Part shown: positions 5,891 to 46,311 of the stretch, piece by piece
Numbering within the stretch: position 1 is the stretch's first letter
Layout of the letters: each line of letters opens with the position of its first letter
Made by a program: the position numbers and the translations under genes
The notes under the pieces: generated by a model
Told to the model about the DNA's origin: nothing
The model's input: the letters and a program-made list of their open reading frames with translations, nothing else
The model's database searches: none
From: Parvibaculum sp.
Lineage (GTDB): Bacteria > Pseudomonadota > Alphaproteobacteria > Parvibaculales > Parvibaculaceae
Length of the DNA stretch: 64,000 bases
Direction: 5' to 3'
NCBI GenBank assembly: GCA_017642695.1
Contig: JAEPQD010000001.1
Location: forward strand, 1,869,701 to 1,933,700

Positions 5891-6988
5891 CTAGGCCAGA
5901 AACCAGTCCATGATCCGCGCATTCTCTTCCGCCGGATAGGTGTGCGAGAGGTCTGCGATCTCGCGATAGGTGACGTCGGCGCCCGCCGCCGAAAGCTCGG
6001 ACGAGGCAAGCCGCGCCATGTCGGCGTTGAACATCCAGTCGAGCGCACCATGCGTGATGTAGACGGGCAGGCCCTGCAGCCGCCCGGGGTCCGCGCCGCC
6101 GATCAGCATCGGGTGCCAGGCCGACGACACGGGTGCCAGATGCGTATAGGGCCCGCCCGCCAACCCCGCGAGATAGGTGAAGGTGCCGCCGTCGCTCATG
6201 CCGGTGAGCAATATGTGGCCCGCGTCGATGCTCCAGCGCTCGTTCACATGCGCGATCATGCGCGCCAGTGAGGTGCGGTCCTGTTCCGGTTCCATGAGGG
6301 ACCAGGTCGCGTCGAGCGATGTCGGGCTCATCAGGATTGCTCCGCGCGAGCGCGCCGCAGTGAGCCACGTCCAGAGAAACCCGCGTCCATGCCCGCTGCC
6401 GCCGTGACAGGCGACGATGAGCGGGTGAGGCCGGCCGGCGTCATAGGTCTCGGGCACATAAAGCGAGAAGCCGCCGCGCTGGTCTTTCTCGTTACCGAAA
6501 TGATGAACGCCGGTACCTTCCTTCGTCGCGCCTTCGGCAAGCCGTTCGAGCAGGACCGCATCGTCGCGCTGACCTTCTTCCAGAAAGAAGCGGCTCACCG
6601 GCGGCAGCATCGCGGTCACGGGATAGAGCGCCTCCATCGCGCGCGGCCCGTGCCGCATGCCGCGATAGGCGGCGAAGACGGGTCCGCCCGGCGACGACTG
6701 GTCGCCCACCGCGCCGCGCAGGCCCTCGAACACGGCCTCCGTCTCGTCCGCGGCCTTGTTGACTTGGTCGCGAAAGGGAACGAGATGCTCGGGCCATTCC
6801 GCGGCGTTGAAGGGATCGCGCGCGTCTTTCAGCTTCGCCGCCACCGGCTCCATCTGTTCGACCAGACTTTCCAGCAGAGGCGGGTGGAGGTGCCTCCCGA
6901 TGAACGACACCGCGTCCATTCCCTGCAGCAAGGCGGGCAGAAGCATGTCGACGGCGTCGATCAAGCCATTCTCTGACTCGGTAGTCAT
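5891..6988 (-). CDS. Alpha/beta hydrolase, phospholipase/carboxylesterase type
   Basis: A 365-residue protein with an alpha-helical N-terminal half of about 160 residues and a C-terminal alpha/beta-hydrolase fold. The oxyanion motif CHGGSGHG is near residues 194-201, the nucleophile elbow GMSDGG has Ser265, a candidate Asp lies in HGALDW near 317, and His349 is in LSHTYP. The pattern resembles dienelactone hydrolase/phospholipase-carboxylesterase proteins. The N-terminal domain is not recognised. A good AAGGAG lies 8 nt before the ATG. It is convergent with the TauE/SafE gene. Confidence 0.75.
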   Translation of the reverse strand: MTTESENGLIDAVDMLLPALLQGMDAVSFIGRHLHPPLLESLVEQMEPVAAKLKDARDPFNAAEWPEHLVPFRDQVNKAADETEAVFEGLRGAVGDQSSPGGPVFAAYRGMRHGPRAMEALYPVTAMLPPVSRFFLEEGQRDDAVLLERLAEGATKEGTGVHHFGNEKDQRGGFSLYVPETYDAGRPHPLIVACHGGSGHGRGFLWTWLTAARSRGAILMSPTSLDATWSLMEPEQDRTSLARMIAHVNERWSIDAGHILLTGMSDGGTFTYLAGLAGGPYTHLAPVSSAWHPMLIGGADPGRLQGLPVYITHGALDWMFNADMARLASSELSAAGADVTYREIADLSHTYPAEENARIMDWFLA

Positions 6989-7062
6989 GGAGTGAACTCC
7001 TTGTCAAAATCCTCAAATATTCATGTAATCGGGAAGAAAGCCGATGTGCAGCGGATTTCTCC

Positions 7063-7080
7063 TTGACAAAAAAGGGTCAA
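7063..7080. promoter_or_regulatory. TTGAC-N8-GTCAA dyad in a 267-bp divergent gap
   Basis: A perfect 5-bp inverted repeat lies between the divergent hydrolase (6988, minus) and glycosyltransferase (7256, plus). It could be an operator, and TTGACA at 7063 is also a good -35 sequence, but no convincing -10 follows at 17 bp. The rest of the gap (6989-7255) holds nothing else I recognise. Confidence 0.25.
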
Positions 7081-44741: not shown

Positions 44742-45742
44742 TGAGAGTTGCTCTTTCCCTCTGTCTTGCGGTTCTGCTCTCCGCCTGCGCGCCGCGCCTC
44801 ATGACGGTCGGCGACCCGGTCTACAAGCCGCATATCGAGCAGGTGGTGCCCTCTCATGCCGTCATGGCTGACGGAACGCGCCTGCCATTACTCGTCTTCG
44901 CGGCAGAGAAGCCACATGCCGTCATTGTCGCGCTTCACGGCTTCAACGACTACTCGAATGCCTTCGCGGCGCCCGGTCCAGGGCCTTGGCTGGCAGAGCA
45001 GGGCGTCACGCTCTATGCCGTCGATCAGCGCGGCTTCGGCCGTGCGCCTGGCCGGGGCCTGTGGGCGGGCGACAGGCGCATGGCTGAAGATGCGGTCACA
45101 CTGGTAGAGCTCGTACGCGAGCGGCATCCGGGCCTGCCCGTATATCTCCTGGGCACCAGTATGGGCGGTGCGGTGGCCATGCGCACGATGATGCTCCCCG
45201 AACCGCCCGAGGTAGAGGGGCTCATCCTCGCAGCGCCTGCGGTCTGGGGTTGGCAGAAGCTCAATCATTTCTACGCTGCGGCACTGTGGACTGCCGCCCA
45301 TCTCGCCCCAGCTGCAACGCTGACCGGCCGCGGGCTCGACATCTGGCCTTCGGACAATATCGAGATGTTGCGCGCGCTTGGCAGGGACCCGCTTGTCATC
45401 AAGGAGACCCGGATTGATACGCTATACGGGCTGGTGCAGCTGATGGACTCCGCCTACGCTGCCGCACCGAAGCTCGACGTGCCGGTTCTCCTCCTCTACG
45501 GCGCCAAGGACGAGATCGTGCCCGCGGGTTCAATCGCCGATGCCTACGAAGCGATGGAGGAAGCTGACGTGAATGTCACGGCGGCGTGCTATCCGGATGG
45601 TTACCACATGCTCCTGCGCGATCTGGAACGCGAAACCGTGTGGCGCGACGTTGCGGCATGGATCGAAAGCGGAGGGGATTCGCTTTTCTCGGGCAAGGAA
45701 GGTGATCTGCGTCACTGTCGCCCTCTTGAGGACGGCGAATGA
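44741..45742 (+). CDS. Alpha/beta hydrolase lipoprotein (monoglyceride lipase/lysophospholipase-like)
   Basis: A 333-residue protein. A lipoprotein signal LSLCLAVLLSAC ends in a lipobox (Cys16). The hydrolase domain has VIVALHGFNDYSNAF near 61-75, the YAVDQRGFG segment, the nucleophile elbow GTSMGGAVA near 137-145, GAKDEIV (Asp) and YPDGYHMLL (His). It probably acts on lysophospholipids or monoacylglycerols at the envelope. The ATG overlaps the UDG stop. The last 20 bp contain the candidate RpoH -35 of the next gene. Confidence 0.87.
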   Translation: MRVALSLCLAVLLSACAPRLMTVGDPVYKPHIEQVVPSHAVMADGTRLPLLVFAAEKPHAVIVALHGFNDYSNAFAAPGPGPWLAEQGVTLYAVDQRGFGRAPGRGLWAGDRRMAEDAVTLVELVRERHPGLPVYLLGTSMGGAVAMRTMMLPEPPEVEGLILAAPAVWGWQKLNHFYAAALWTAAHLAPAATLTGRGLDIWPSDNIEMLRALGRDPLVIKETRIDTLYGLVQLMDSAYAAAPKLDVPVLLLYGAKDEIVPAGSIADAYEAMEEADVNVTAACYPDGYHMLLRDLERETVWRDVAAWIESGGDSLFSGKEGDLRHCRPLEDGE

Positions 45743-45752
45743 AGGCATAGAT
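45725..45752 (+). promoter_or_regulatory. Candidate RpoH (sigma-32) promoter of hsp20
   Basis: CTTG (45725-45728), 17 bp, then CATAGAT (45746-45752) fits the alphaproteobacterial heat-shock pattern CTTG-N17/18-CYTATNT at 5 of 7 positions in the -10. It would start transcription near 45758, leaving a 62-nt leader for hsp20. Confidence 0.5.
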
Positions 45753-45791
45753 TTTTGACTGGGCAGTGAAGCCCGCATGTTTGTGAAGGGT

Positions 45792-45820
45792 GCTTTTTTG
45801 GTCCGAAAAGGAGCAGAAGA
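45792..45820 (+). ncRNA. FourU-type RNA thermometer candidate over the hsp20 Shine-Dalgarno
   Basis: GCUUUUUU (45792-45799) pairs over 8 positions with AAAGGAGC (45807-45814) around a GGUCCGA loop. Two pairs are U-G and the rest are A-U/G-C, so the stem is weak and should melt on heating. The covered AAAGGAG is the ribosome-binding site, 6 nt before the ATG at 45820. A second, GC-rich hairpin GGGC-AGTGAA-GCCC (45761-45774) lies upstream. Two-hairpin order matches known heat-shock thermometers. Confidence 0.65.
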
Positions 45821-46311
45821 TGGCCAATCAAGTCTCGAAAAATGAAGACCACAAGGGAACGTCTCTTTTTTCGCACGATCCCTTTTCTTCCTTCCGTGAA
45901 GAAATGAACAGCCTGATTGACCGCGCCTTCGGGCGGAGTACGGGCTTTCTCGATGTCCCGGCGTTCGGCCGGTTTGGAACCGGCGCTGTCACGCCGCGCA
46001 TCGATCTCCATGAAACCGAAAAATCCTATTCTCTCGAGGCCGAGCTTCCCGGCCTCGAGGAGAAGGACATAGACCTCAGCGTCCACGATGGCGTGCTGAC
46101 GCTGAAGGGCGAGAAACGCTACGAGAAGAAGGACGCGGCCCGCGTCGTGGAGCGTCACTATGGCAGCTTCCAGCGCGTCTTCACTCTGCCGTCCGACGTC
46201 GATGACGCGAAGATCGATGCGACATTCGACAAGGGTGTGCTGACGGTGACGATGCCGAAGAAGCCGGGCTCGAAACCGGCTAGCCGTCAGATATCGATCG
46301 GCAAGGGGTGA
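45820..46311 (+). CDS. Hsp20/alpha-crystallin family small heat-shock protein
   Basis: A 163-residue ATP-independent chaperone holding unfolding proteins. The N-terminal DPFSSFREEMNSLIDRAFG segment precedes the alpha-crystallin domain (PRIDLHETEKSYSLEAELPGLEEKDIDLSVHDGVLTLKGEKR) and the VERHYGSFQRVFTLP and GVLTVTMPK strands. The ATG at 45820 is preceded by AAAGGAG. Expression should be heat-regulated at two levels: an RpoH-like promoter and a thermometer hairpin. Convergent with the patatin gene, stops 4 bp apart. Confidence 0.93.
   Translation: MANQVSKNEDHKGTSLFSHDPFSSFREEMNSLIDRAFGRSTGFLDVPAFGRFGTGAVTPRIDLHETEKSYSLEAELPGLEEKDIDLSVHDGVLTLKGEKRYEKKDAARVVERHYGSFQRVFTLPSDVDDAKIDATFDKGVLTVTMPKKPGSKPASRQISIGKG

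Follow-up and report, generated by a model that had tools for sequence, protein, structure and literature searches.

A predicted U-rich hairpin over the ribosome site of a Parvibaculum hsp20 gene is a candidate start-masking RNA thermometer under a predicted RpoH-type promoter

The leader of hsp20, a small heat-shock gene in an alphaproteobacterial genome of 3.6 Mb, is a plausible candidate for a start-masking RNA thermometer that lies under an RpoH-type promoter. All positions given here refer to the window, which is the whole stretch of 64,000 nucleotides of Parvibaculum DNA that was analysed. The gene itself, the layout of its leader and the masking of the Shine-Dalgarno (SD) sequence in the organism's own genome make this leader a reasonable thermometer candidate, and the promoter, a hairpin (hairpin I), the tract, the SD sequence and their potential to pair can be read from the letters. 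From these elements we infer where transcription starts, how the leader folds in the cell, that heat melts the fold and that translation is affected. A sigma-32-type promoter would transcribe hsp20 with a leader of about 60 nt, in which a stable 5' hairpin would be followed by a U-rich hairpin over the ribosome site, a spacer and the start codon. In unheated cells the U-rich hairpin would lower hsp20 translation, and heat would loosen its A-U/G-U-rich middle and give the ribosome access. The most likely partner of the SD core in this species is UCC, the U tract would close up the spacer, and a FourU pairing would be at most a minor or transient (co-transcriptional) alternative. We put forward this combination of a sigma-32 promoter and a U-rich start-masking hairpin opened by heat tentatively, with a probability that comes close to even but stays below it. 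It is favoured by the SD masking, the comparison with shuffled sequences, the fact that the gene is of the small heat-shock kind, the spacing of the promoter, the conservation of the tract and the SD, and a Pseudomonas-like layout. It is weakened by the open start regions of the orthologues, the different pairings that they prefer, an SD pairing that stays flat over temperature and an ordinary heat slope.

The hsp20 gene (45820..46311, plus strand) encodes a protein of 163 aa (PF00011) and is one of three Hsp20 genes in the host genome. The closest named loci belong to Parvibaculum sp. or Rhodobiaceae (76-90% protein identity). The gene sits 3' of an ORF with weak alpha/beta-hydrolase matches, and a patatin-like gene (TIGR03607) faces it. 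By reading, the ribosome binding site AAAAGGAG is located at 45806..45813 on the plus strand, with AAAGGAG at 45807-45813 followed by 6 nt and then the ATG at 45820, and its AAGGA is invariant in all eight aligned orthologues. Upstream lies an RpoH (sigma-32)-like promoter, CTTGAG-N15-CATAGAT (45725..45752, plus strand), which is predicted from a pattern search of the window, the spacing in orthologues and the published consensus. The CTTG (45725-45728) is separated by 17 nt from CATAGAT (45746-45752), and the -35 box is embedded in the final codons of the upstream ORF. The initial annotation had proposed an RpoH-like promoter at the right distance, and the comparison with relatives bears this out: CTTG stands exactly 17 nt ahead of the -10 heptamer in 11 of the 12 orthologous leaders, with heptamers and tract borders chosen by eye. 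The sole leader of the 12 that lacks the CTTG-N17 arrangement belongs to a broken hsp20 orthologue (L025 and L038, genome G021). The combination of a CTTG -35 box and a C(C/A)TA-type -10 box at the right spacing, the latter picked by eye, agrees with the CTTGAA-N15-16-CCTATAT reported for S. meliloti RpoH1 in the accessible portion of PMC4843759. The 64-kb window holds one match to the promoter pattern versus 0.05 expected, a test that is partly circular because the pattern was built from the orthologues and the site itself. We consider the prediction of an RpoH-type promoter for hsp20 a good one.

Hairpin I (U-GGGC/GCCC-G, 45760..45775, plus strand) is located close to the point where the transcript is predicted to begin, as seen by reading, with RNAalifold and in the folding of the 12 leaders. 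A GC hairpin upstream had been noted before, and it is indeed present. A hairpin after the -10 box is predicted in all 12 leaders, with stems that mostly differ in sequence (Stouffer z -4.5 against shuffles); the hairpin of the species itself, taken alone, is no better than its shuffles (z -0.14). A terminator made of hairpin I and the U's was dropped on inspection, the hairpin and the U run being 18 nt apart. By reading, the six U's (T6 in the DNA) occupy 45794-45799. The 64-kb window contains two matches to the pattern T6-N3..9-AAGGAG where 0.01 would be expected, and the 3.6-Mb genome as a whole likewise contains two, compared with one for a reversed control pattern. The sole other copy in the genome lies at 7059-7073 of the window on the minus strand, and a 365-aa ORF, whose own ribosome site reads UUUUGACAAGGAG, starts about 70 nt downstream of it with the ATG at 6988.

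With four energy sets, RNAfold predicts an extended start-site hairpin, B (45784..45830, plus strand), as the minimum-energy fold. Its lower part consists of UGA/UCA, GGU/GCC (codon 2) and UUUUUUG/CAGAAGA (the spacer and the A of AUG), and its upper part of a G-G mismatch, UCC (45802-45804) paired with the GGA of the SD, and a GAAAA loop. In all four sets the favoured hairpin places UCC (only CC in one set) on the SD and the U's on the spacer between the SD and the AUG. It had been claimed earlier that the six U's pair with AAAGGAG through an 8-bp stem. The letters are there and the stem can be drawn as a FourU-type stem, A (GCUUUUUU at 45792-45799 with AAAGGAGC at 45807-45814, plus strand), with 8 bp, two G-U pairs, two closing G-C pairs and a 7-nt loop, but pairing of the U's with the SD is not the predicted fold in any of the four energy sets. 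The energies of B and A are -18.8 and -9.6 kcal/mol with Turner 2004 (A costs 9.2), -17.5 and -11.7 with Turner 1999 (5.8), -15.6 and -9.6 with Langdon 2018 (6.0), and -11.0 and -9.5 with Andronescu 2007 (1.5). FourU as the favoured fold is therefore ruled out by energy in all four parameter sets.

That the ribosome site is unusually masked in its own genome is a prediction supported by the comparison with other genes. At 37 C it takes 8.1 kcal/mol to open the SD, an energy reached by 9 of 219 gene starts (hsp20 included) from crude ORFs of at least about 150 codons with an ATG and an SD-like motif, at least one of which looks internal. Opening -15..+4 costs 13.0 kcal/mol, a value that 34 of the 218 other genes reach. 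The folding of the -36..+18 region of hsp20 is matched by 3 of 300 shuffles, and that of the 73-nt region of the leader by 1 of 200. The initial annotation asked for folding at different temperatures, and here the result is divided: the start is predicted to be masked at 37 C, but the computed unpaired fraction of the SD is nearly the same at 20 C (0.400) and at 55 C (0.407). Opening the start region takes 15.2 kcal/mol at 25 C and 11.5 kcal/mol at 45 C, and this fall of 3.7 kcal/mol is ordinary, being reached by 66 of 218 genes. The flat SD pairing and the ordinary fall in opening energy thus leave melting without support from the energy model, and the ordinary heat slope makes a masking thermometer slightly less likely and an ordinary leader slightly more likely. 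The same computation was applied to other heat-shock leaders. The masking of E. coli ibpA is reached by 139 of 219 genes and that of ibpB by 16 of 219. Among eight below-cut-off Rfam ROSE hits from other alphaproteobacteria, with starts picked by rule and six of the eight preceding IbpA-like N-termini by reading, two are at 20 of 219 each and six at 77 to 168 of 219. As E. coli ibpA and six of the eight ROSE hits are unremarkable, we abandoned computed energies as a decisive detector of thermometers. Since they detect thermometers poorly, they are neither proof nor exclusion, and this also holds for the weak structure in the relatives.

The serious rival is an ordinary sigma-32-controlled leader, an explanation that we regard as quite possible. 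In that case hsp20 would be heat-induced solely via its sigma-32 promoter and the SD pairing would be incidental; the 5' hairpin would stabilise the mRNA, and the U/C tract would be an S1 landing site or part of a strong ribosome site. A U/C tract ahead of an SD can serve as a landing site for ribosomal protein S1. The conservation of the predicted promoter is the strongest signal of all, and it counts for this rival. Much of what the relatives show also counts for it. Among 27 genomes of the genus, 18 have a match at E<=0.001, and full or nearly full orthologues with at least 58% identity are present in 11, the own genome included; a further copy, in G021, is broken. A start region more open than that of the median gene in the studied genome is found in 10 of 11 orthologous leaders, and the fall in opening energy upon heating is below that of the median gene in 9 of the 11 other leaders. 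As a set, these 11 leaders fold no better than shuffles over -36..+18 (Stouffer z -0.26) and moderately better over -62..+12 (Stouffer z -2.3). Two alignments (A1 and A2) cover 8 of the 12 genus leaders, with L022, L023, L024 and the broken-gene L025 omitted as hard to align. In these eight the FourU helix has 93.6% of its cells paired, versus 91.5% when slid by one column, in keeping with a pyrimidine tract whose base composition suits it to pair with a purine-rich SD. The pairing of the U tract with the SD in the own species is no better than in dinucleotide shuffles (p 0.42; Fisher p 0.78 over nine leaders, including an L017 row in which the SD and tract were picked one motif too far upstream), and as a duplex it is average in the genome, 116 of 218 genes being as strong. 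Against the ordinary leader, the SD of hsp20 is clearly more masked than that of most genes. The leader of L023 also speaks against it: a 6-bp hairpin has been inserted there and is stacked on a retained 8-bp stem between tract and SD, and this leader has the lowest z of all 12 for -36..+3 (-3.6). For UCC/GGA, the pairing that masks the SD in B, 87.5% of the cells of the eight aligned leaders are paired, versus at most 70.8% when slid. No two-sided change was found in these leaders for UCC/GGA or for the FourU helix; covariation is uninformative for helices with the SD because the SD is invariant.

The initial annotation also proposed conservation of the U tract and the stem as a check, and only one side of it held. 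A block near the SD that reads roughly YUUUCUUGRUCNGRAAGGAG is conserved, with L019 and L021 as exceptions, and the stretch directly upstream of this tract-SD block is not; but a run of at least four U's is present in the tract of only 5 of the 12 leaders (six in the own species and L015, four in L021 and L023, five in L025). The other seven (L016, L017, L018, L019, L020, L022 and L024) have no such run in the tract, and L019 has four U's further upstream only. The own leader and L015 form a supported pair in the tree (97/94), in which most other forks are unresolved, and therefore the six-U tract belongs to that pair; UUUCUU may be the older state of the tract. An Rfam search at E<=10 over 15 loci gave six matches, none of them from a thermometer family. 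In another genus of the same family, two loci (L040 and L041) carry CCUCCU 26 and 21 nt, respectively, before an AGGAGG site, of which it is the perfect complement.

The preferred pairing differs among the orthologues. It could be that one U/C tract provides three mutually exclusive locks on the start site (one on the SD, one on the spacer and one on the start codon with codons 2-5), that the favoured lock shifts within the genus as the tract drifts, and that the six-U tract arose recently in the own and sister lineages from a UUUCUU-like tract. We think that this is unlikely. The third of these pairings, helix C, is predicted for L015 to L018, which favour it. Here the U tract with GGUC (45794..45803, plus strand) pairs with the start codon and codons 2-5, UUGGUC lying on GGCCAA(UGAAG), and the SD is looped out. 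Such a start-codon hairpin may be older in the clade than the other folds; it bears chiefly on the relatives and is compatible with start masking by B in the own species, so that the two probabilities overlap, and by itself we hold it to be distinctly unlikely. In the eight aligned leaders 84.8% of the cells of C are paired in register versus 20.3-53.2% when slid, and there is one two-sided change, from G-C to A-U in L018, which comes with an Ala-to-Val change in codon 2. RNAalifold with the codons included returns this helix (-7.8 kcal/mol at 37 C), and the comparison with shuffled tracts gives a Fisher p of 0.03 over nine leaders, which is weak because the rows are related and which includes the mis-picked L017 row. 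However, shuffles of the partner also yield a two-sided change in 179 of 500 cases, and in 456 of 500 they attain the paired percentage; furthermore, the strength of the tract-codon duplex in the own species is reached by 31 of 218 genes. The helix fails in L019 and largely also in L021, and in the own species it is 7.9 kcal/mol worse than B. Moreover, the protein by itself would keep these codons conserved, and the choice of synonymous codons in the region is nothing special (ranks 0.09 to 0.75).

A true FourU thermometer, in which the six U's lie on AAAGGA and the stem melts like a zipper, is an explanation that we hold to be improbable. FourU elements are defined, in the sections available of PMC11182007 and PMC4166951, by a run of four or more U's opposite the SD, with two or more G-U pairs. 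Stem A as drawn has six U's on AAAGGA and two such pairs, the arrangement is found twice in the genome, and RNAalifold on the eight leaders without coding sequence does yield a FourU-type helix, with only -0.33 kcal/mol. The pairing could also form first during transcription. Yet the terminal hairpin predicted with the four energy sets does not pair the U's with the SD, A being 1.5-9 kcal/mol less stable than its competitor, and Rfam FourU (RF01795) has no match at E<=10 in positions 45500-46000 or in the whole genome. The FourU label of the initial annotation is thus a weak one: the six U's and two G-U pairs support it, but the predicted fold, Rfam and the U runs of the relatives do not, and membership in this class is doubtful.

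For the studied leader, ROSE is rejected, as the motif U(U/C)GCU is absent by reading; Rfam ROSE has no match at E<=10 in positions 45500-46000, and its two weak hits in the genome lie elsewhere. The motif, as defined in the parts consulted of PMC11182007 and PMC3669281, is present in another Hsp20 gene of the same genome. This IbpA-type paralogue (G000 C2, around 165.7 kb, locus L002/L035) carries CAUCGCUUGAAGAGGAUG, with a U(U/C)GCU core facing AGGA (UCGCU...AGGA), and it scores 18.3 bits with Rfam ROSE, far below the cut-off of 45. The ROSE-core pattern matched 9 of the 12 loci tried, all of them IbpA type, from the own genome and eight relatives; the three loci without it (L003, L029 and L031) are a different Hsp20 type by their N-termini. 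Among 28 more distant alphaproteobacterial Hsp20 leaders, taken from matches in 92 of 385 outside genomes with start codons that were picked by rule and in several cases look wrong, a crude pattern found two that are ROSE-like and one that is FourU-like. The earlier statement that small heat-shock genes of alphaproteobacteria are usually tied to ROSE elements therefore fits the IbpA-type paralogue but not the Hsp20 type studied here, nor the distant leaders, with 2 of 28.

If the leader is heat responsive, Parvibaculum would use different RNA locks on two of its small heat-shock genes, a ROSE element on the IbpA type and a non-ROSE hairpin here, and the closely related leaders, in which the bases facing the ribosome site change by degrees between U and C, would form a natural series. 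Such a series would allow tests of how thermometer classes interconvert. If the three locks described above are real, these classes would be interchangeable states of one evolving hairpin. A literature search returned no report of an RNA thermometer in Parvibaculum, and among the matches listed, which were titles and abstract openings with subscription literature barely covered, there was no FourU on an alphaproteobacterial small heat-shock gene.

Among known systems, the nearest design to the predicted start-masking hairpin is probably that of Synechocystis hsp17, which appears closer than Salmonella agsA. As described in the available text of PMC4477652, hsp17 is a small heat-shock gene in which one extended hairpin covers the SD and the start codon, the SD is held by UCC(U) rather than by U's, and there is an interruption between the SD stem and the start-codon stem. 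The fold predicted for our leader resembles this layout, with UCC on GGA and the A of AUG paired. Unlike in hsp17, there is UCC rather than UCCU, only the A of the AUG is paired, a G-G (1x1) mismatch takes the place of the 1x3 bulge, a 5' hairpin precedes, and the U tract pairs with the spacer. With the agsA FourU, as far as covered in the portions seen of PMC3669281 and PMC4166951, the leader shares a small heat-shock gene, a U run opposite the SD and a second hairpin upstream, whereas here the predicted fold does not pair the U's with the SD, most relatives do not have the U run and Rfam FourU does not match. The own genome's IbpA-type ROSE leader belongs to the same protein superfamily and follows the same SD-masking logic, but there UCGCU faces AGGA, which has no counterpart in the hsp20 leader. 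In overall layout the leader resembles the short ROSE-like thermometer of Pseudomonas ibpA. The Pseudomonas ibpA leaders tested in the work excerpted from PMC3669281 are 61-62 nt long and have a stable hairpin I and a hairpin II that melts. Although U(U/C)GCU is absent from it, the hsp20 leader likewise has about 60 nt, a stable GC hairpin I and a weak predicted hairpin II over the SD, ahead of a small heat-shock gene.
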